A stretch of DNA of 34,608 nt, taken from Alphaproteobacteria bacterium (GTDB lineage: Bacteria > Bacteroidota > Bacteroidia > Chitinophagales > Chitinophagaceae). Every line of letters begins with the position of its first letter. The stretch's first letter is position 1. The translations under genes were made by a program, and so were the position numbers. Shown here one piece after another: positions 514-34,342 of the stretch. The stretch lies in contig JASGCT010000023.1 of assembly GCA_030053915.1 (NCBI GenBank), positions 1 to 34,608 on the forward strand, given 5' to 3'. Under the pieces are notes generated by a model. The model worked only from the letters and a program-made list of their open reading frames with translations. It made no database searches and had not been told where the DNA came from.

Positions 514-1209
514 ATGAATAAACCATCAAAAAACATTAAATTCCTTAGAGTTAAATCGGGCTTAACCCAGGAAAAATTTGCTAAAAAATTAGGTATCAAA
601 CGGTCTTTACTTGGTGCATACGAAGAAGACAGGGCTGTACCCAATTTATCTGTAATTAAAAAACTTTGTGCAAAATTTGAAATCAGTTTTGAAGAGTTTT
701 TGTTAAAAGACATCGCCACAATTATGAATAATAAAGACGTTGAACCGATCGTTCAGAACACCCTAAAATATACCGAATCGCTAAATGATTTTAAAAACAA
801 AAAACCTAAAAATAGTATTCAATTTGTTCCCATAAAAGCCGCTGCAGGATATTTACAGGGCTATTCCGACCAAACCTTTATTGAAGAGTTAAACAGTTTT
901 ACCTTACCCATGATAGGAAGTGGTCATTATAGAGCTTTTGAAATAAAAGGCGACAGCATGTTACCAACCCCAAGTGGCAGCATTATTATTGGCGAAAAAA
1001 TAGCCTCTTCTGACGACATTAAATCTTCAAACACTTATATTGTGTTAACTAAAGAACAAGGAATCGTTTATAAAAGAGTGGTTAAAAAAAATAAATACAA
1101 AATTGAGCTTAGAAGCGACAACGAGCACTATGAACCTTATTTAATAGACACCAACGCCATATTAGAAATATGGAAAGCTCAATATGTGATTCAAAAACCA
1201 AGTAACTAA
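514..1209 (+). CDS. XRE-family HTH regulator with S24 (LexA/CI-type) peptidase domain
   Basis: This is a DNA-binding regulator of the LexA/phage-CI architecture. An XRE-type helix-turn-helix spans about residues 7-62, followed by a linker and an S24 self-cleavage domain (about 103-226). The catalytic serine is in GDSM (Ser148) and the general-base lysine in VYKRV (Lys187). An Ala-Gly pair in the sequence AAAGYLQGY (111-112) sits where such proteins cut themselves. From the family one expects dimeric repression relieved by autocleavage under DNA damage or another stress. No phage genes are nearby, so a host regulator is more likely than a prophage repressor. The gene stands alone and converges on the DUF5689 gene. 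Its operators are unknown; a palindrome found at 5150-5167 and again upstream of recA is a candidate worth testing. Confidence 0.88.
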   Translation: MNKPSKNIKFLRVKSGLTQEKFAKKLGIKRSLLGAYEEDRAVPNLSVIKKLCAKFEISFEEFLLKDIATIMNNKDVEPIVQNTLKYTESLNDFKNKKPKNSIQFVPIKAAAGYLQGYSDQTFIEELNSFTLPMIGSGHYRAFEIKGDSMLPTPSGSIIIGEKIASSDDIKSSNTYIVLTKEQGIVYKRVVKKNKYKIELRSDNEHYEPYLIDTNAILEIWKAQYVIQKPSN

Positions 1210-1249: not shown

Positions 1250-2560
1250 TTACTTTGTAAACACTTTAATATTATCAATTAAAAAGGTTGTTGTTTTGTT
1301 TAATTGTATGTTTTTAGAATTAACCCCACTATATTTAAAAGCACATCGAATATCTTTACCAGCAAAACTACTAAGACGAACCTCACCTGACGATATAAAA
1401 TATTTTTCAAAATTTCCGGTAACTCCACGAGCTATTTGTGCCGATAACCGTTGCCAATGCGCCTCATTAATATCACCATAAAAATCCTCGCTAATATACG
1501 CATTCAGTTCTGCACCGTTATCAAAAGCACATTTTGTAGAAAACTCTAAAAACGTTTGCAAGTTTTGAGGAATCGATAATAAGGGTGAAACCAACCATGC
1601 TTCTAAAATACTATCATTAGAATATGCCGAAATGGATATTACGTTATTGTCATCAACTTGAATAACTTTAAATTTTTCTTGTCCCTTCTCGGTTAAATTA
1701 TACCAATCCTGCCCGCTAAACACCGAGTTTATAGGATAGTTTTCAAAGCTTTGGTTTAAAAGATAGTAATTATTTTCTAAGCCACAACGCTTTTTGTCTA
1801 ATTGAACATCCGTCCATTTATTTAAAATGAGTTGTAAGTCGTTATTATAAACCGACAAAATACCTTTAATTGTTCCGTTTGCACCGGGCACTTTTTGGGA
1901 TGCAAAATTGGCATAACCACTCGTGCGCACATATAAAGGCGTTCCGGTACAAAATTGTAATATACGATTTATTGAAAATTTATTGATATAATCAGCCATA
2001 AAATCGCCAGTATCTTTATAATTAAACTCAACATCTTGAAGTTCTATATACCTATTTTGCCAACTTAAATTCAGTGATGCTTCTGTTAACTGTGTGGCTT
2101 GGGGGGTTACAGTATCAACAAAACTAAAATAATTATTTTGTAACACAATGGGAATACCGATAGCCCTTTTATTAATAGTATCATATCCCAACCCTATTTG
2201 AATATTATTATTATAATCGAACAAACTTAACCCTTCTAAATTTATTGCCCACCTACTTCCAATTGGAAACGTATTATATAAACTACTCCCATCCACGTTT
2301 AAGTAAACACCTGCCGTACTATCTTCTACTATAATAGTTTTGTAAAAATTGTTTTCTTGGTCGTTAGCTACAACCGTTACCAAAACTATTTTTGACGTAT
2401 TAATTTTTTGAATCTTTCCAAACTGATAGGTTTCTAAAACTTTATTTAGGGTTGTATTGGGTTGAAATTGATTTCCTAATTGAATCTTATCGGGTAATTT
2501 AAAAGGGCTACATTGAAGTGCTAATAGCATCAAAAAGAAGGGATAAATTTTTGTTTTCAT
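1250..2560 (-). CDS. DUF5689 lipoprotein with choice-of-anchor-J-like C-terminus
   Basis: This is a 436-aa probable surface or periplasmic lipoprotein. The hydrophobic leader ends in LALQC (Cys17), a tolerable but not ideal lipobox. Residues about 40-260 match the DUF5689 family, an OB-fold-like module common in Bacteroidota, visible in segments such as VANDQENNFYKTIIVEDS and YNTFPIGSRWAINLEG. Residues about 265-436 look like a jelly-roll choice-of-anchor J domain (NQSFENY near its start, FLIDNIKV at its end). It starts only 5 nt after the stop of the upstream TonB-dependent receptor, so the two are surely co-transcribed. A secreted nuclease-family enzyme is divergent to them. By position it may replace a SusD-type substrate-binding lipoprotein for this receptor. 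That the OB fold binds nucleic acid is inference. Confidence 0.8.
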   Translation of the reverse strand: MKTKIYPFFLMLLALQCSPFKLPDKIQLGNQFQPNTTLNKVLETYQFGKIQKINTSKIVLVTVVANDQENNFYKTIIVEDSTAGVYLNVDGSSLYNTFPIGSRWAINLEGLSLFDYNNNIQIGLGYDTINKRAIGIPIVLQNNYFSFVDTVTPQATQLTEASLNLSWQNRYIELQDVEFNYKDTGDFMADYINKFSINRILQFCTGTPLYVRTSGYANFASQKVPGANGTIKGILSVYNNDLQLILNKWTDVQLDKKRCGLENNYYLLNQSFENYPINSVFSGQDWYNLTEKGQEKFKVIQVDDNNVISISAYSNDSILEAWLVSPLLSIPQNLQTFLEFSTKCAFDNGAELNAYISEDFYGDINEAHWQRLSAQIARGVTGNFEKYFISSGEVRLSSFAGKDIRCAFKYSGVNSKNIQLNKTTTFLIDNIKVFTK

Positions 2561-2565
2561 ATTAT

Positions 2566-5115
2566 TTAATTTATTGAATATTTAAAGCCAATAGTAAAGC
2601 TAATCCCTTGAGCATACAGCAATTTTGGACTAAACGTTGCAATATTATTGTCGTCGTAATTATACCGAAGTTGCTCGTATTGATAACTAACAATATGGAT
2701 ATTATTGGTAAGGTTATAACAAGAAACAAAGGCAGAAATGACATGGTAGGTTTTTGAGCTAATTTTAATACGGTTATTATAATATACACTTAAATCAATT
2801 TGATACAAATTAGAAAGCTGTAAAGGTGATAAAATTTGGGAATAGGTTGTTGACTTGGGGTTGATGTCTTGCAAAACTAAAGGCGTTCGGCGATAAGGAT
2901 TATAATTTGAATACGATTGAAATGCCGACCCGATGCTTAAATTACAATACCAGTGCGCATTGGGTTTACAAATTATTTGACAAAATGCCGACCATGCAGG
3001 AGATAGCTCAACAGGAAAACTATTTAATAAACTCATCCCGTCTTCAATACGTTTTAAATCATTTTTTAAAAACAAACTATAGCGCGGATTATTACCATAA
3101 ACGTGCTGACTGATACTTCCTGCAAATTTTAAACTCCACTGTTCTGTTAAAGTTAACACATTTCCAAAACTAAATCCAAGATAATTTTTTTGAACATTTG
3201 ATAGTACGCCTATAACAAAATTATTATATTTGTCGTTAAAAAAATTGTTTTTTATGGTTTCGTTATGTGATTGAACTAAATACAATTGTCCAAAAGCCTG
3301 TGTTTTTTCGTTTTTATATTGAATATCAAGCATAATTCCTTGATATTGTGTAAATTGAAAGTTTTGCAAAATCTTATTATGCCAAGAGATGTCTAAAAAA
3401 TAGTTTTGAATAGTTGGGATTTGCTGTGAGTAATATCCTGACAATAAAAATTGGAGATTGGGTAAAAACTTATATTGAACAGACATTTTTACAGAATGAG
3501 CCCCAAGTGTTTTTAAACCACTACTGCCTAAAGAATTTTCAGGAAACAATCCATTTTGATTGTATCCCATTCTAACCATACTAAACGAAGTATGTGTGCT
3601 ACCAAGATTAAAGATAAATTTATGAAATAAATATTGAATTTGCCAATAATATTTTGCTTGGTAAAAGTTTACGGCATAATTGGGCCCATACTTTTGATTT
3701 TCATAAATTATAGTATTGGGTTGTAAGAGGTTAAATTGTATGGCTTGTGGATTAAAAGTTGGGTCAGCATAAAAATTCCAATTAATATAAAACGAGCCTC
3801 CTAACAAATCTGCTAATTTTTGAAAATAATGATTCCATTCGCCTTGAACTTGTATCCCAGTAGCCAGGTAGAGACGATTATAATACCAACGATTAAACGA
3901 CCCAGCTAATTGCATACTATGCTGATTATTATATAAATGTCTTAGAATATAGTTAGAAATATTGCCTGATTTCACAAGTTGTTGATTGTCGTATAAATAA
4001 CTATAATTTTGGCGATTTATTTGATATAATTTTTCCCAGTTAAAATAGAGTAGCAAGGGGTTATTAATAAAATTAGAATAGACCTGATTTTTAATGAGAC
4101 TATCTGATTGATTTGAAGGAAGGTTTTTATAATAATCGGCTTTAGGGTCGGCCGCATCGTGCCAATCTAAATTTTGTTGAATGGTTTGATTATAATTATA
4201 CAAAAAACCAAGATTAAGATGCCCTTTTTTAAATGCATGATGATTATAATTTAAAATTAAAGTTGGGTTAATTGCTTTTTGAGTATTTACAAATTTAAGT
4301 CCACCATTGTAAAAACCCCAGTTGGGATTATAATAGTGGTTGTTACTAATATCTACCGCTTCCTGAGTTACCGAAGTGCGGCTGGAATTATGGCTATATG
4401 TAAACAAAACTTGAACCAAAAGCTCTTGCTGTAACTGCCATTGTTTATGATAAGCGGCTAAAAGCGAAGCCCTTCGGCTAAAACCAGCCAAAATTGCACC
4501 GTCGTTTGCCCAGCGAATTTTAGAAGATACTAAAAACCGGCTGTCATTTTTATAACGCTTACTTATAAAATCACTCCCATATAAATATTGAAAATTGCGA
4601 TTGGAATATTGAACATATTGATGCCAACCAGACTGTAGTGCCAAGACATTTAAATCTAAAACATTTAGCTGAGCCGGTGTTCCAAGTTGGTATGGATGAC
4701 TTGGTTGAAACGAATGAAAAAACTGAGATGAATAATTTAATATGTTATCATAAATAGCTAAAATAGTAATCCTTTTATTATTTAAACTATTTAAAGATAT
4801 ATTTTGAAAAGCAATTTCATTAAGCGCATTGGGCAACCCTTGGTATCGTAAATTAAAATTAAACCCTTTTGACAAAATAATGCTAAGATAAGGGTTCTTT
4901 GAGCTTTGAAGTAAAGACGGGGTTTGTTCTATAAATTCTTGATTGGTGTTCTCTTCTTGTTCAATTTCGTTTTGGTCTATTATAAATTCCTGTAAATTAA
5001 TAGTATCCAAAATAGCACGAGTCGAATTAAAATTCTTACCCATCGAGACTGCGTCAAAATTATTTAAGTAGCAACACATTATAATAACAAAAATTATTTT
5101 ATAGATTTCTTTCAT
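2566..5115 (-). CDS. TonB-dependent receptor with divergent plug
   Basis: This is an 849-aa outer-membrane beta-barrel receptor with an N-terminal signal sequence (about 1-23). It lacks the CarboxypepD_reg-like extension usual in SusC-type proteins. The plug (about 65-150) is recognisable but eroded: where relatives have an R-x-R-G-Y...N-G-x-x-x-N pattern this one reads LRYQGLPNALNE and QNISLNS. The barrel keeps family signatures such as NHYYNPNWGF and WHDAADPKADYYKNLPSNQ, which I recognise from Bacteroidota receptors linked to DUF5689 proteins. The C-terminal residue is Asn rather than the usual aromatic. It forms an operon with the downstream DUF5689 lipoprotein. A -7 element lies almost on the start codon. 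The substrate is unknown; nucleic acid or nucleotides are suggested only by the neighbouring nuclease-family gene. Confidence 0.8.
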   Translation of the reverse strand: MKEIYKIIFVIIMCCYLNNFDAVSMGKNFNSTRAILDTINLQEFIIDQNEIEQEENTNQEFIEQTPSLLQSSKNPYLSIILSKGFNFNLRYQGLPNALNEIAFQNISLNSLNNKRITILAIYDNILNYSSQFFHSFQPSHPYQLGTPAQLNVLDLNVLALQSGWHQYVQYSNRNFQYLYGSDFISKRYKNDSRFLVSSKIRWANDGAILAGFSRRASLLAAYHKQWQLQQELLVQVLFTYSHNSSRTSVTQEAVDISNNHYYNPNWGFYNGGLKFVNTQKAINPTLILNYNHHAFKKGHLNLGFLYNYNQTIQQNLDWHDAADPKADYYKNLPSNQSDSLIKNQVYSNFINNPLLLYFNWEKLYQINRQNYSYLYDNQQLVKSGNISNYILRHLYNNQHSMQLAGSFNRWYYNRLYLATGIQVQGEWNHYFQKLADLLGGSFYINWNFYADPTFNPQAIQFNLLQPNTIIYENQKYGPNYAVNFYQAKYYWQIQYLFHKFIFNLGSTHTSFSMVRMGYNQNGLFPENSLGSSGLKTLGAHSVKMSVQYKFLPNLQFLLSGYYSQQIPTIQNYFLDISWHNKILQNFQFTQYQGIMLDIQYKNEKTQAFGQLYLVQSHNETIKNNFFNDKYNNFVIGVLSNVQKNYLGFSFGNVLTLTEQWSLKFAGSISQHVYGNNPRYSLFLKNDLKRIEDGMSLLNSFPVELSPAWSAFCQIICKPNAHWYCNLSIGSAFQSYSNYNPYRRTPLVLQDINPKSTTYSQILSPLQLSNLYQIDLSVYYNNRIKISSKTYHVISAFVSCYNLTNNIHIVSYQYEQLRYNYDDNNIATFSPKLLYAQGISFTIGFKYSIN

Positions 5116-5120
5116 AGCGT

Positions 5121-5128
5121 CAAAACTA
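5121..5128 (-). promoter_or_regulatory. -7 element of the receptor/DUF5689 operon
   Basis: The minus strand reads TAGTTTTG, a full TAnnTTTG match, with only 5 nt between it and the receptor ATG. Transcription from it would give an mRNA with little or no leader. No clear -33 box is seen. Confidence 0.4.
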
Positions 5129-5149
5129 AGTTTTTTTTCGATTCGGTTT

Positions 5150-5187
5150 TTGCGTATTTATACGTAAAAAAGCGGTGGTTTTTACGT
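5150..5187. promoter_or_regulatory. operator-like palindromes in the divergent receptor/nuclease promoter region
   Basis: TTGCGTATTTATACGTAA (5150-5167) is an inverted repeat of 7-bp arms around 4 nt with one mismatch. It overlaps a second perfect 9-bp inverted repeat, ACGTAAAAA (5162-5170) and TTTTTACGT (5179-5187). They lie between the receptor start (5115) and the nuclease-family start (5237), where a regulator could control both. The first palindrome recurs at 34465-34482 upstream of recA. Confidence 0.45.
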
Positions 5188-5236
5188 GTTTTTGGTATTT
5201 ATAAAATGATTAAATTAGCCGCTTAAAATAATAAAT

Positions 5237-6331
5237 ATGAAACAAAAATGTATTACTAATTGGTTAAATTTTAAGTTACCAAAATCTTTTAAAAGCCAAT
5301 TCGTCTTAAAAATTTTAAAAGTATCTAAAGTATTAATAATAAGTGTATTATTAGGTACAAATATCGTGGTTGGTCAAAGAGCCATTGTAAGTTTTTACAA
5401 TTTAGAAAACTTTTACGACACCCTTGATGATCCTAAAATTAATGACGAGGATTTTTTGCCCCAAAGCCCCAAAAACTATACCAGTAAGGTGTTTAAACAA
5501 AAAACATACAATATGGTTGAGGTCTTAAACAAAATTGGCAAACATTACGACACGAACGGGGTAGCTATTTATGGATTCGCCGAGTTCGAAAATCAATCGA
5601 TACTTAAAACGCTCCAAGAGTCCTTTAAAACTAAAAACAGAGTTTACGAATATGTACATTATAATTCTGCAGACATGAGAGGTATTGATGTTGGATTGTT
5701 TTATCAACCCAACCGCTTTCAAGTTCTTGAATCTAAGCTAATTCCGGTTCTTGACAGCACCATAAAATATTCTATAAAACGCGAAATTCTTTATGTGTAT
5801 GGGTTATTAGACCACGAACCTGTTTTTGTTTTGGTAAGCCATTGGCCTAGTAGGCGTGGTGGCGAAAAGCGGTCGGCATCAGGGCGCATAGCCATTGCTA
5901 AAAAACTATATGCTGTGTGTCAAGATATTTTTAATAAAAATCCCTCAGCAAATATTATTGTTATGGGCGATTTTAACGACAATCCAGACAACAAAAGCTT
6001 AACCCATGCTCTACAAGCCATAGGTAATAAACAAGATTTAAAACAACGTTCTTTATACAACCCATTTTTTAATATTTATAAATTGCAAAATGGTAGTTTA
6101 GCACATGCCGATGTATGGGCATTGTTCGACCAGATTATTATTTCGGCAAATTTTTTAAATCAATCAAAACAAGGCTGGCATTTTAGAAAAGCAGAAATTT
6201 TTAAAACACCAGAAATTATAGAAACCAAAGGAAAGTATAAAGGATATCCTAAACGAACCTGGAACGGCAACTACTTTCAAAACGGTTTTAGCGACCATTT
6301 TCCTACCTATATTGTTTTAGATTGGCAATAA
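5237..6331 (+). CDS. secreted endonuclease/exonuclease/phosphatase (EEP) family enzyme
   Basis: This is a 364-aa member of the metal-dependent EEP (DNase I-like) fold, which hydrolyses phosphodiester or phosphomonoester bonds. The family motifs appear in order: SFYNLENFYD (52-61), AEFEN (115-119, metal-binding Glu), RGIDVG (148-153), SHWPSR (201-206, catalytic His202), GDFNDNP (244-250) and SDH (352-354). A hydrophobic segment at about 31-46 ending in VVGQ acts as a signal peptide, though its leading basic region is unusually long; no internal Met offers a better start. It is divergent from the receptor/DUF5689 operon. EEP and OB-fold modules also occur together in single-chain secreted nucleases of the ExeM/NucH type, so extracellular nucleic-acid digestion is the likely role. 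A phosphatase acting on another phosphoester cannot be excluded. Confidence 0.85.
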   Translation: MKQKCITNWLNFKLPKSFKSQFVLKILKVSKVLIISVLLGTNIVVGQRAIVSFYNLENFYDTLDDPKINDEDFLPQSPKNYTSKVFKQKTYNMVEVLNKIGKHYDTNGVAIYGFAEFENQSILKTLQESFKTKNRVYEYVHYNSADMRGIDVGLFYQPNRFQVLESKLIPVLDSTIKYSIKREILYVYGLLDHEPVFVLVSHWPSRRGGEKRSASGRIAIAKKLYAVCQDIFNKNPSANIIVMGDFNDNPDNKSLTHALQAIGNKQDLKQRSLYNPFFNIYKLQNGSLAHADVWALFDQIIISANFLNQSKQGWHFRKAEIFKTPEIIETKGKYKGYPKRTWNGNYFQNGFSDHFPTYIVLDWQ

Positions 6332-6530: not shown

Positions 6531-8951
6531 ATGAAATATCAAAACATACGTGAAGAAGAACTCAAAAACAAGGTAGTTCAAGACTATTTTTGGCTTTACG
6601 ATTGCTCTAAAATAATCGGCAATATTGATTTTTGTGTTTGTATGCACCAAAGTCAGAAAGAGATTTTTGAACAAGAATCTCTGCTTTGGGCAGAAGCCAA
6701 AAAAGGAGCTTCAGATATATATAAATCACTCGTTCAACTCATTTTAACAATTGGTAAAGCTAGAATTTTTGATAAATTTTTACCTCCTACTTTGTTAAGC
6801 GCCTTCGATGGCGAAAAAATGGCTTTTATTCCTTACAATGATATTCATGATATTTTTTATATGAACGATTTTAACTGGAATGTAACGCCTTCAAATCACG
6901 ACACAAAAGAGTTCAAATTAATTCACAATAAAGTAAAAACAATCATTGATAGCAAAGCACTGCTCTTCAATTTTTTGAATGACGATAGTGACCTCAAAAA
7001 ATTTATCAAAACCAATTTAATTGCCGGTAAACATGGCTTAACCAAAACCAAAATTGACAAAAACAATTTTATGGTCATCTATAATAAATGGCTGCAAGCA
7101 GTAAAACCCACCATTGCCGTAAACTGGGACTTAGCAAAAAAAATTGGCATTATTGATGGCGATTTTTATCTTGCCGATTTACTCTCGCACGAAAACCATA
7201 CTTTAAAAGAAAAACTTTTTGTGTTACTAAAACGCGACCATTATGAACTGGATAGAAAATTAGATGAAGTAGGCATGTTTAGTAGTAAACGAACAGACTT
7301 TTTGGACAAACAAATGGCACATACGCAATTCTGGAATAAATACGACCGACCACCCAAAGAAGATTATTGGGATTATATTGTAGAACGGAGGGATTTATTA
7401 GTGCCGCAAGACGTAAGAGAACGCAAAGGCAGTTATTTTACACCACAAATATGGGTAGAATTATCTCAAAAATATTTAACAGATGTTTTAGGTGAAGACT
7501 GGCAAGACGAATATTATGTTTGGGATTGTGCAGCAGGTACAGGCAACCTTTTAACTGGACTTACCAACAAATATAATATCTGGGCATCTACCTTAGATAA
7601 ACAAGACGTTGAAGTGATGCACGACCGCATCAAAAATGGCGCCAATTTATTAGATGACCACGTGTTTCAGTTTGATTTTTTAAATGATGATTTTAACAAA
7701 TTACCCCAACCACTGCAAGACATCATCAACAATCCTAAAAAAAGAAAAAAATTAGTTATTTATATAAATCCACCGTATGCGGAAATAGCAGGTAATAAAA
7801 TTGGTGTGAACCTAACAAAAATTCACGATAAATATCATAATCAGCTCTCAGATGCAAACAGAGAATTGTATGCTCAGTTTTTAATAAGAATTTACAATGA
7901 AATTCCCAATTGTTTAATTTGTGAATTTTCTAAAATTAAGACGCTTTCTGGTTCACATTTTAAAGAGTTTAGAAACAATTTTAAAGCAAAATTAGTAAAA
8001 ATATTTCTTATTCCTGCATGGACTTTTGATAATGTTATAGGTCGCTTTCCTATAGGTTTTAAAATTTGGGATACATCTAAAAAAGTTAATTTTGAAAATA
8101 TAAACACTGAGGTATTTGATGAATACGGAAATAAAATCGAAGATAAAACTTTATATTCTTATGATAATGTAAGTTATTTTAGCAATTGGGTAACATCAAT
8201 TAAATCAAGTCAAAAAGAATATATTGGTTGGTTAGAAGGTGTAACGAGAAATGATTTTCAATCTCAAAGAGGCATAGTTTTATTAAATAATAAAGAACAA
8301 ATTGCGGTCCCAAGGGGTATTTATATAAGTCGGATTAATTTAATTCCATCTTGTGTTTGTATTACAGTAAGAATTGTTATAAAACATTTGTGGCTAAACG
8401 ACCGAGATCAATTTTTGCATCCAAACAAAAAATGGGAAAAAGATAAAGAATTTCAAAATGATTGTTTAGCACATACGCTGTTTCATAGTCAAAATCGTAT
8501 TAGCAGTAAATACGGCATAAACCACTGGATACCTTTTACCGAAAAAGAAGTTAATGCCAGAGAAAAATTTGATAGTGATTTTATGACCAATTTCATAAAA
8601 GGTAAACCAAAGCCGCCTTCAAAATTACCCAAAATTATGAATATGTTATTTGAAGACCAAGCCCCTTATTATACAAGCGACCCTTTAGAGTTCTCAAAAG
8701 CTGCTGCCGCTGTGTTTGATGCAGGTCGTGAACTCTGGAAATATTATCACCAACAACCCAAATCTAATGTCAATGCCTCTCTGTATGACATTAGAGAACA
8801 TTTTCAAGGCAGAAATGATGCCGGCAAAATGAACAACAAAAGTTCAGACGAAACCTATATGAATTTAATAAACAACTTGCGAGAAAAACTAAAACTTCTT
8901 GCCTTGAAAATTGAACCCAAGGTTTATGAATATGAGTTTCTGAAACAATAA
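6531..8951 (+). CDS. type IIG-like restriction enzyme: fused nuclease and N6-adenine methyltransferase
   Basis: This 806-aa protein combines DNA cleavage and modification. The N-terminus carries a PD-(D/E)xK-like pattern: Asp33 in GNIDF, then Glu55-Ala-Lys57 in WAEAKKG. The methyltransferase core has motif I DCAAGTG (332-338) for S-adenosylmethionine and motif IV NPPY (413-416), the gamma/N6-adenine type. The segment WTFDNVIGRFPIGFKIWDT and the C-terminal part containing FQNDCLAHTLFHSQNRI and HWIPFTEKEVNARE match single-chain type IIG or type I-like methylases known from Campylobacter and Bacteroidota. The C-terminal third presumably recognises the target. It is shorter than Eco57I-type enzymes (about 1000 aa). 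No separate restriction, specificity or helicase gene is adjacent. It stands alone between unrelated genes, as expected for an acquired defence gene. The recognition site cannot be read from sequence. Confidence 0.82.
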   Translation: MKYQNIREEELKNKVVQDYFWLYDCSKIIGNIDFCVCMHQSQKEIFEQESLLWAEAKKGASDIYKSLVQLILTIGKARIFDKFLPPTLLSAFDGEKMAFIPYNDIHDIFYMNDFNWNVTPSNHDTKEFKLIHNKVKTIIDSKALLFNFLNDDSDLKKFIKTNLIAGKHGLTKTKIDKNNFMVIYNKWLQAVKPTIAVNWDLAKKIGIIDGDFYLADLLSHENHTLKEKLFVLLKRDHYELDRKLDEVGMFSSKRTDFLDKQMAHTQFWNKYDRPPKEDYWDYIVERRDLLVPQDVRERKGSYFTPQIWVELSQKYLTDVLGEDWQDEYYVWDCAAGTGNLLTGLTNKYNIWASTLDKQDVEVMHDRIKNGANLLDDHVFQFDFLNDDFNKLPQPLQDIINNPKKRKKLVIYINPPYAEIAGNKIGVNLTKIHDKYHNQLSDANRELYAQFLIRIYNEIPNCLICEFSKIKTLSGSHFKEFRNNFKAKLVKIFLIPAWTFDNVIGRFPIGFKIWDTSKKVNFENINTEVFDEYGNKIEDKTLYSYDNVSYFSNWVTSIKSSQKEYIGWLEGVTRNDFQSQRGIVLLNNKEQIAVPRGIYISRINLIPSCVCITVRIVIKHLWLNDRDQFLHPNKKWEKDKEFQNDCLAHTLFHSQNRISSKYGINHWIPFTEKEVNAREKFDSDFMTNFIKGKPKPPSKLPKIMNMLFEDQAPYYTSDPLEFSKAAAAVFDAGRELWKYYHQQPKSNVNASLYDIREHFQGRNDAGKMNNKSSDETYMNLINNLREKLKLLALKIEPKVYEYEFLKQ

Positions 8952-16633: not shown

Positions 16634-18625
16634 TTATTTTGAATAACTTTGCATATTTCTTTCTACAAACTGGGTTAAAGCATTGCCTGTTAATAGCCCT
16701 TGTGATAGCAAACTTAAATCCAAAATGTTTTTAGCTTGAACTTTTTGAATGGCTTCGTCTGACTCTTGCAAAAGTTTAGAAAACATGGCATGATTGCCAT
16801 TTATATTGATATCTACCTCATCTTTCATTTTGGCATAAAAACTCATCATCCCATTTGCCCCGCCTAAAGACGACATATCTTTCATGCGTCTCATAAACTC
16901 GGGGCGTGTAGCCGTTATGGGCGTAGCATCAGGTGCTAAGCCTAAAACATGAACAGATAAATTTACCTCTAAATCTTCATTTTTAAATAATTTTTCTAAT
17001 TTTTCTACTTCTTCTTTAGAAAGTACACACTCTTTCTTTTCTTGTTTGTCTATAATGTTTTCAACAATATCACTATCTACACGCACAAACGATAAATCAC
17101 TCCATTTAGATTCCATATTATTAATAAATGCTGCATCTACTAAGGTTTCCATTTTAATAATAAAATATTCTTTTTCGGCGCATTTTTTAATATAGTTGTC
17201 TTGTTGAATAGGATTGGTAGTATATAAAGCAACAATTTTACCATCTTTGTTTTTTTGTTTATCGGCAGCTTTAGCTTTATAATCTTCTATGGTGTAAAAC
17301 AAGGGCTTCACTGAACCGTCTTCTGTTTTAATCGTATTAACGGCGTCTTCTAAAATTAAAAATTTATTGGCTTTTTCTAAAAACTTGTCGTCTGTCATCA
17401 TACCATATTTAACAAACAAGCCTAAACTTTCCCATTTTTTTTCAAACTCATCACGTTCTTTATTAAAAATTTCTTCTAACTTATCAGCCACTTTTTTGGT
17501 AATATGGTTATTTATTTTTTTAACATTAGGGTCGCCTTGAAGATAAGAACGGCTTACATTTAAAGGAATATCGGGACTATCAATAACTCCATGAAGTAAC
17601 ATTAAAAATTCTGGCACGATCTCTTTAACTTCATCGGTTACAAAAACTTGATTGCAATATAATTGAATTTTATCCTTTTGAATTTCGTAAGATTGTTTTA
17701 TCTTTGGAAAATATAAGACTCCTGTTAGTTTAAAAGGAAAATCGACATTTAAATGAATCCAAAACAAGGGTGTTTCACTAAATGGATATAACTTGCGATA
17801 AAAGGCTTCATAATCTTCTTTTTTTAAATCGCCTGGCTTCTGAACCCAAATGGGTTTGGTATCGTTGATTGGTTTTTCTTCGGGCAAAACTACGTCTTTC
17901 TTAGCGTTTTCGGGTTGTGTTGTCTCGGTGTTTTCTGGGTTGTTTAAATCTTCAATGACTTCAGCAATGTCTTCGGTAGCAGAATTGGACTCAGTTTCTT
18001 TTTTGTCTTCTTCAACACCTTCTTCTTTAAAATAGATAGGAATCGGCAAAAATTTACAAAATTTTTCTAAAATTGATTTAAGTCGATAGGCTTCTAAAAA
18101 TTCAGCACTGTCTTCGTTAATATGTAAAACTATTTTAGTGCCCCTTTCTTTAAAATCTACTTGATATAACTCGTAATGTGTAGTGCCGTCGCAACTCCAA
18201 AAAACGCCAGGCTCCTCTTTATAAGATTTAGAAAAAATATCAACCTTACTACTAACCATAAACGCACTGTAAAAACCCAAGCCAAAATGTCCTATAATGT
18301 TGGTATCTTTATACTTCTGAACAAACTCTTCGGCACCACTAAAAGCAACCTGATTAATATATTTATCTACTTCCAACTCAGTCATTCCAACACCATTATC
18401 TTGTATGGTGAGTGTTTTTTCTTTTTTGTTTAAGACAATGTTAATTCTTAGGGGCGATTCATCTACTTTAATGCTATCGCTTAATTGAATTGCCATAATT
18501 TTTTGGCAAGCATCTACAGCATTACTTACTAATTCTCTTACAAAAATTTCATGATCTGAATATAAAAACTTTTTGATAATTGGAAAAATGTTTTCCGTTT
18601 GAACACGTATTTGACCTTTTTGCAT
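16634..18625 (-). CDS. htpG: Hsp90-family chaperone HtpG
   Basis: This 663-aa protein is the bacterial Hsp90, an ATP-dependent cytoplasmic chaperone. The GHKL ATPase residues are present: Glu31 and Asn35 in FVRELVSNAVDAC, Asp76 in DNGVGM, and the lid GHFGLGFYSAFMV. The middle-domain segment IPLNVSRSYLQGD and the C-terminal dimerisation region (AKNILDLSLLSQGL) follow. It is longer than E. coli HtpG (624 aa) because of an acidic linker of about 60 residues (roughly 200-262, rich in Glu, Asp, Asn and Thr) between the N-terminal and middle domains. This recalls the charged linker of eukaryotic Hsp90. Synthesis is probably stress-regulated, but no clear TAnnTTTG element lies directly upstream. Confidence 0.97.
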   Translation of the reverse strand: MQKGQIRVQTENIFPIIKKFLYSDHEIFVRELVSNAVDACQKIMAIQLSDSIKVDESPLRINIVLNKKEKTLTIQDNGVGMTELEVDKYINQVAFSGAEEFVQKYKDTNIIGHFGLGFYSAFMVSSKVDIFSKSYKEEPGVFWSCDGTTHYELYQVDFKERGTKIVLHINEDSAEFLEAYRLKSILEKFCKFLPIPIYFKEEGVEEDKKETESNSATEDIAEVIEDLNNPENTETTQPENAKKDVVLPEEKPINDTKPIWVQKPGDLKKEDYEAFYRKLYPFSETPLFWIHLNVDFPFKLTGVLYFPKIKQSYEIQKDKIQLYCNQVFVTDEVKEIVPEFLMLLHGVIDSPDIPLNVSRSYLQGDPNVKKINNHITKKVADKLEEIFNKERDEFEKKWESLGLFVKYGMMTDDKFLEKANKFLILEDAVNTIKTEDGSVKPLFYTIEDYKAKAADKQKNKDGKIVALYTTNPIQQDNYIKKCAEKEYFIIKMETLVDAAFINNMESKWSDLSFVRVDSDIVENIIDKQEKKECVLSKEEVEKLEKLFKNEDLEVNLSVHVLGLAPDATPITATRPEFMRRMKDMSSLGGANGMMSFYAKMKDEVDININGNHAMFSKLLQESDEAIQKVQAKNILDLSLLSQGLLTGNALTQFVERNMQSYSK

Positions 18626-33260: not shown

Positions 33261-34316
33261 TTAGTCAACATTAAGGTTTAAACCTTCTGTGGCTTTAGCA
33301 GCAATTTTGGCTTTAATAAGTTGTTCAATTTCTATGGCTAATTCTGGGTTGTCGCTGAGTAGTTTTTTTATAGCATCTCTACCTTGTCCTAATTTATTAT
33401 TATTATACGAAAACCAGCTACCGCTTTTTTGAATAACGCCATGTTCAACACCTAAATCAACGAGTTCTCCAACTTTGCTGATACCTTCTCCAAAAACTAT
33501 ATCAAATTCAGCATTTCTGAATGGTGGGGCAATTTTGTTTTTGACAACTTTAACTTTAACTCTATTACCAACGGCTACATCACCGTCTTTAATTTGTTGA
33601 ATTCTGCGAATATCTAAACGGACTGAGGCGTAGAATTTTAAAGCGTTACCGCCTGTAGTTGTTTCGGGATTGCCAAACATAACGCCAATTTTGTCTCTTA
33701 ATTGGTTTATAAAAATACAAATAGTATTTGTTTTGTTGATGGTTGCGGTAAGTTTTCGAAGGGCTTGGCTCATTAATCTGGCTTGTAGTCCCATTTTGCT
33801 ATCTCCCATATCGCCTTCAAGTTCGCTTTTGGGTACAAGTGCTGCCACGGAGTCTATAACAACTACGTCTAAAGCGCCTGAAAGGATGAGTCGGTCGGCA
33901 ATTTCAAGTCCTTGTTCGCCATAATCGGGCTGTGAAATTAACAAACTATCCACATTAACACCAAGTTTTTGGGCATAGGTACTGTCAAAAGCGTGTTCCG
34001 CATCAATGATAGCACAAATACCCCCTTTTTTTTGAGCTTCGGCAATAACATGAATGGCAACTGTTGTTTTTCCTGAGGCTTCTGGTCCAAATATTTCTAC
34101 AATTCTTCCACGAGGTAAACCACCTAAGCCTAAAGCAATATCTAAGCCTAAAGAACCTGTTGAAATAAAATCCATGGTTTCTTTGGCTTTTTCGTTCATC
34201 ATCATAACACTGCCTTTACCGTAATCTTTTTCTAGCTTGTCGATAGTCATTTTAAGGGCTTTAAGTTTTTCTAAGTTTTGACTTTTGTCATTGTTTTGAT
34301 TTTTTTCTGTACTCAT
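33261..34316 (-). CDS. recA: recombinase RecA
   Basis: A 351-aa ATP-dependent strand-exchange protein, central to recombination and the DNA-damage response. I start it at [17 protein letters not shown]; the longer frame from 34337 begins inside the -7 element. Walker A is GPEASGKTT (77-85), Walker B lies in [13 protein letters not shown], and [29 protein letters not shown] holds the L2 region. The C-terminus is not strongly acidic, unlike that of E. coli. A palindrome identical in its arms to one at 5150-5167 lies about 150 nt upstream of the start. Confidence 0.98.
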
Positions 34317-34334
34317 ATAATTAAAATTTTTTTG

Positions 34335-34342
34335 CAAAGATA
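34335..34342 (-). promoter_or_regulatory. -7 element of recA
   Basis: The minus strand reads TATCTTTG, a full match, 18 nt before the chosen ATG. A CAAA at 34358-34361 is only 15 nt away, short for a -33 box. Confidence 0.6.

Follow-up and report, generated by a model that had tools for sequence, protein, structure and literature searches.

How DNA crosses the outer membrane in Bacteroidota without type IV pili is an unsolved problem, and it is addressed here through a three-gene locus in a 34,608-nucleotide stretch of DNA, referred to below as the window. A lipoprotein gene (1250..2560, minus strand; 436 aa) and a gene for a receptor-like outer-membrane protein (2566..5115, minus strand; 849 aa) are separated by 5 nt, and a gene for an EEP (DNase I-like) enzyme (5237..6331, plus strand; 364 aa) diverges from this pair across a 121-nt intergenic region (5116..5236) that presumably carries promoters for both directions. 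All three open reading frames are full length. An earlier, sequence-only reading of this DNA had described receptor and lipoprotein genes 5 nt apart and a divergent EEP gene, and the coordinates and the 5-nt gap agree with that description.

Products of the three genes

The lipoprotein matched DUF5689 in Pfam (4e-45) and choice-of-anchor J in NCBIfam (6e-12), and its match to the M949_1556 lipoprotein family (9e-48) fell under that family's own cut-off. It is the sole DUF5689 protein of the window's genome, with the DUF5689 domain at residues 34-252 followed by a choice-of-anchor J/MAM-like jelly roll at approximately 262-436. Cys17, the site of lipid attachment, is invariant across alignment A2. 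Acidic residues follow this cysteine in 101 of 119 relatives, a surface-export-like feature; the window protein (LALQCSPFKLPDK) has no acidic residues after the Cys, which is preceded by an unusual Gln. The long lipoproteins that we scanned (680-691 aa; L097 and L025) contain two tandem DUF5689 domains vs. one in the window protein, and this length is common among Weeksellaceae lipoproteins.

Structural comparison of residues 262-436 with VIA-align revealed a resemblance of the C-terminal domain to carbohydrate-binding and adhesin modules (Z 14-16). A Foldseek search with the lipoprotein hit the p204 HINab-dsDNA structure with a probability of 0.99, yet a TM of just 0.16-0.21, and PF01336 gave sub-cut-off matches in 3/19 and 4/36 members. 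These weak OB-fold and HIN matches are suggestive of a possible OB fold in DUF5689. The locus had previously been compared with ExeM/NucH nucleases split in two. The lipoprotein and the EEP enzyme are indeed encoded by separate genes and have separate export signals, unlike the single ExeM/NucH chain that joins an OB-type and an EEP module, and the likeness, an EEP enzyme accompanied by a possible OB-fold module, depends entirely on the possible OB fold of DUF5689. Similarly, the lipoprotein gene does lie where a susD gene would sit, and SusC/SusD importers also combine a TonB-dependent-type barrel with an adjoining lipoprotein gene; the window lipoprotein, however, consists of DUF5689 and a jelly roll and had no match to SusD families in the Pfam and NCBIfam scans.

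For the 849-aa protein the Pfam and NCBIfam scans gave zero matches, so the designation "TonB-dependent receptor" made earlier could not be read from family scans. It is upheld instead by the alignment of the family, in which some relatives carry recognisable Plug and CarboxypepD_reg domains, and by the predicted fold. The predicted structure (mean pLDDT 62; residues 1-155 are left out of the model) is a barrel of about 22 long strands, as expected for the 22-strand barrel of TonB-dependent receptors, and all 50 PDB matches listed in the fold search with the barrel model were TonB-dependent receptors or complexes thereof. A plug-like segment at approximately residues 60-155 precedes the barrel. 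The Pfam Plug profile matched weakly in 7 of 21 relatives, aligned at this segment, and did not match the window copy, in which the plug motifs are eroded. The N-terminal CarboxypepD_reg domain occurs in about half of the relatives, the window receptor not being among them.

The EEP enzyme matched Exo_endo_phos_3 (PF19580, 4e-95), and its catalytic-type motifs (FYNLENFYD, AEFEN, SHWPSR, GDFND, and SDHFP) are intact and conserved in the homologue alignment, which places it among EEP (DNase I-like) proteins by both profile and motifs. The N-terminus is signal-peptide-like, but the label "secreted" given to the enzyme before is too strong. The tail after the SDHFP motif spans 7-20 residues across EEP homologues, too short to accommodate the C-terminal signal of type IX secretion, and action of the enzyme at the cell surface is therefore unlikely. 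Judged from these features, a periplasmic location is as likely as secretion or likelier, which makes the enzyme a candidate periplasmic nuclease. No solved relatives of the lipoprotein, the receptor, or the enzyme were found by sequence profile.

The lipoprotein gene adjoins a gene (514-1209, plus strand) for a protein with an HTH (phage-repressor-like) domain and an S24 peptidase domain. Located 3′ of the EEP gene, an 806-aa open reading frame (6531-8951, plus strand) with the NPPY-type motif INPPYAEIAG encodes a probable DNA methyltransferase; the Pfam scan gave nothing for it, NCBIfam matched it weakly to MAD2, and it is not kept as a neighbour of the trio in relatives. An HSP90 (htpG) gene is present in the window at 16634-18625 (minus strand), and in two relatives htpG lies closely 3′ of the lipoprotein gene (L034:4430-6271 and L032:10134-12005). 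PADLOC returned no match for the EEP enzyme or the lipoprotein, and the idea that either belongs to a defence system or a phage was dropped.

Relation to the transformation genes of Riemerella

In Riemerella anatipestifer, RA0C_RS04915, a CarboxypepD_reg (PF13620) outer-membrane protein, adjoins RA0C_RS04920, a protein with DUF5689 and DUF5017 (PMC8459023). Clean (markerless) deletion of either gene brought transformants below detection, and mutants in comEC, dprA, recA, comF, and the HhH and DUF1343 genes behaved like these deletions (PMC8459023). A Riemerella genome in our set (G649; 2,164,087 bases in one contig) carries in succession recA, a DinB-like gene, three sdh genes, comEC, two further genes, the EEP gene (minus strand), the receptor gene (plus strand), and the lipoprotein gene (plus strand). 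Its assignment to the genus refers to G650, which is 100% identical to the named R. columbina locus. When locus tags were counted by five starting at recA (RS04870), comEC became RS04895, the receptor RS04915, and the lipoprotein RS04920, so that all published tags fit. From this agreement we infer that the genome is that of R. anatipestifer and that the EEP gene corresponds to RA0C_RS04910, which the published study mentions solely as an upstream gene with unchanged transcription (PMC8459023). The trio is also present in R. columbina DSM 16469, with domain calls equal to the published ones (PF13620; DUF5689 and DUF5017), and competence of R. columbina is proven (PMC7965970).

Pairwise comparison of the window with Riemerella gave E-values of 3e-25 for the receptor, 9e-18 for the lipoprotein (against a sister Riemerella species), and 3e-66 for the enzyme. 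The Riemerella receptor had one match only in the window's genome, the window receptor itself, at 22% identity. The window lipoprotein gene is adjacent to and downstream of the receptor gene and likewise encodes DUF5689 with a C-terminal jelly roll. By these sequence comparisons, the window receptor and lipoprotein are orthologues of RA0C_RS04915 and RA0C_RS04920, and the EEP enzyme would be the orthologue of the putative RA0C_RS04910. The two loci thus share an orthologous pair in the same order and strand arrangement, in single copy and with a divergent EEP gene beside it. They differ in that the window receptor is very divergent and has no CarboxypepD_reg domain, and the host belongs to another order of the class. 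The window recA (33261-34337, minus strand) is on the same contig as the trio at approximately 28 kb from the receptor gene, vs. approximately 10 kb in Riemerella with comEC in between; comEC of the window's genome is on a different contig.

The window's genome contains further genes of Riemerella-type transformation: in addition to recA, comEC (cut at a contig end), dprA, and a gene for a helix-hairpin-helix (HhH) protein, the match of which was weak but above cut-off. Two NamZ/DUF1343 proteins are also encoded (G000:C162:6118-6708 and G000:C115:3595-4194). R. anatipestifer cannot be transformed without one protein of this family (PMC8459023), which perhaps serves in wall remodelling. As predictors of the trio, ComEC, DprA, HhH, and NamZ (DUF1343) proved uninformative, being near-universal. 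A secretin was detected in 1 of 38 genomes and in neither the window's genome nor the two Riemerella genomes, which makes a PilQ-type pore unlikely. The type IV pilus/PilQ machinery likewise brings DNA over the outer membrane to ComEC, but the proteins of the trio are unrelated to it.

As the receptor and lipoprotein are relatives of proteins that the duck bacterium R. anatipestifer requires for transformation, a DNA-import device is probable, and we put the probability that the locus serves natural transformation as a DNA-uptake module of the outer membrane, as in Riemerella, at roughly 0.6. The sequence-only reading had proposed scavenging of nucleic acid or another phosphoester instead. In a nutrient-scavenging version, the three proteins would bind, cut, and import extracellular nucleic acid for phosphate or nucleosides, and transformation in Riemerella would be a by-product. 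The link to nucleic acid is borne out by the Riemerella genetics of the orthologous pair. The arrangement of receptor, lipoprotein, and enzyme does resemble nutrient loci, no further competence genes occur in the immediate neighbourhood in the window, and the patchy distribution of the trio does not follow that of the remaining machinery, since comEC and dprA occur also in most trio-less relatives. Nevertheless, scavenging as the main role is unsupported, because the only experimental phenotype is the loss of natural transformation (PMC8459023); the missing type IX signal of the enzyme and the position of the Riemerella trio close to recA, with comEC three genes away, also speak against it, and we regard it as unlikely.

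Other published observations bear on an uptake module to different degrees. Mutants in tonB show reduced transformation in Riemerella (PMC8383284), an effect that may in part act through iron. The transposon screen of R. anatipestifer covered 3000 mutants and was unsaturated; the EEP gene was absent among its hits (PMC8459023). Flavobacterium johnsoniae has the pair and showed no competence in the conditions used (PMC7965970, PMC8459023). We found no literature after 2021 naming these loci; preprints were outside the search, and a later report is possible.

Conservation and linkage of the trio

Apart from the window's own genome, the receptor was found in 22 of 58 relatives searched, in one copy each. 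When 296 genomes of the phylum were searched with a profile, the scores were bimodal, full-length matches lying above approximately 600 bits and unrelated receptors at or below approximately 200 bits. The full-length receptor occurred once per genome (as two frames in one genome) and in some families of the window's class only. The receptor gene is followed by a DUF5689 lipoprotein gene in 39 of 41 loci (nine families) and adjoined by an EEP gene in 30 of the 41, divergently in 28 and co-directionally in two. Among 80 named Weeksellaceae loci, 79 have the lipoprotein gene and 78 the divergent EEP gene. A search for linkage of DUF5689, EEP, and receptor genes across Bacteroidota had been suggested as a check on the locus, and these counts (39/41, 30/41, and 78/80) answer it in the affirmative; with 41 loci in nine families and the 80 named loci, the layout of the trio is not due to chance.

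In the window's family, an EEP orthologue was present in 16/16 receptor-bearing vs. 1/20 receptor-free genomes (Fisher p 2e-9), the single exception being a fragmented assembly. Lower-scoring EEP paralogues of receptor-free genomes were set aside as a different subfamily, having no adjoining receptor orthologue or lipoprotein. When kinship was corrected for on a ComEC tree, the receptor-EEP association came down to four independent contrasts with support, each of them in agreement (p = 0.125), and with just four contrasts significance is out of reach. In 4 of the 16 genomes (G001, G011, G019, and G030) the EEP gene is unlinked to the receptor gene, so that a shared position does not explain their co-retention.

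These results bear on whether the EEP gene is a mere stable divergent neighbour with no part in the work of the receptor pair. Shared promoters can preserve divergent neighbours, and two genomes (G186 and G032) have the enzyme with the receptor undetected. At the same time, every receptor-bearing genome of the window's family keeps the enzyme, even where unlinked, and in family f27 (L082 and L083) EEP, receptor, and lipoprotein genes are co-directional in an apparent operon with gaps of 9-22 nt. We consider such a bystander role of the EEP gene improbable. A second EEP gene is located nearby in L082 (16067-17083).

Proposed route of DNA and its meaning

For the DNA-uptake module we propose, by analogy, that the receptor is a DNA channel across the outer membrane and the surface lipoprotein its DNA-binding partner. 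The lipoprotein would capture double-stranded DNA, and the receptor-like barrel would conduct it across the outer membrane, with TonB as the probable source of energy; the exported EEP enzyme may then nick or trim the DNA in the periplasm. Single-stranded DNA would then be moved by ComEC through the inner membrane and integrated by DprA and RecA. The published Riemerella model gives no maker of single strands (PMC8459023), and the EEP enzyme is a candidate for this missing component. Transformation is metal-dependent, as judged from the effect of EDTA, which agrees weakly with a metal-dependent nuclease. The least likely of the readings is an indirect role, with the receptor importing another substrate or shaping the envelope and the EEP enzyme acting on a phospholipid or small phosphoester: the breadth of the DUF5689, choice-of-anchor J, and EEP families, the carbohydrate-binding and adhesin-like C-terminal domain of the lipoprotein, and the lower transformation that some lipid-metabolism and envelope genes also gave in the Riemerella screen (PMC8459023) would fit it, but deletion of the pair abolished transformation on par with comEC and dprA, and the receptor-lipoprotein pairing is kept across orders.

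The receptor-lipoprotein pair is known already in Riemerella. Three points are new: these two genes now extend to further orders within the class, they have a conserved and co-retained EEP partner for which a catalytic task is plausible, and the locus in the window is assigned to the Riemerella-type system. A functional meaning also emerges for DUF5689, which Pfam lists as a family without known function. It is conceivable, though we say so tentatively, that many Bacteroidota use a secretin-free, TonB-receptor-type DNA importer composed of the receptor, a DUF5689 lipoprotein, and a dedicated periplasmic EEP nuclease supplying ComEC with single-stranded DNA. If this is true, the component that the published Riemerella model leaves "unidentified" would be the EEP nuclease.
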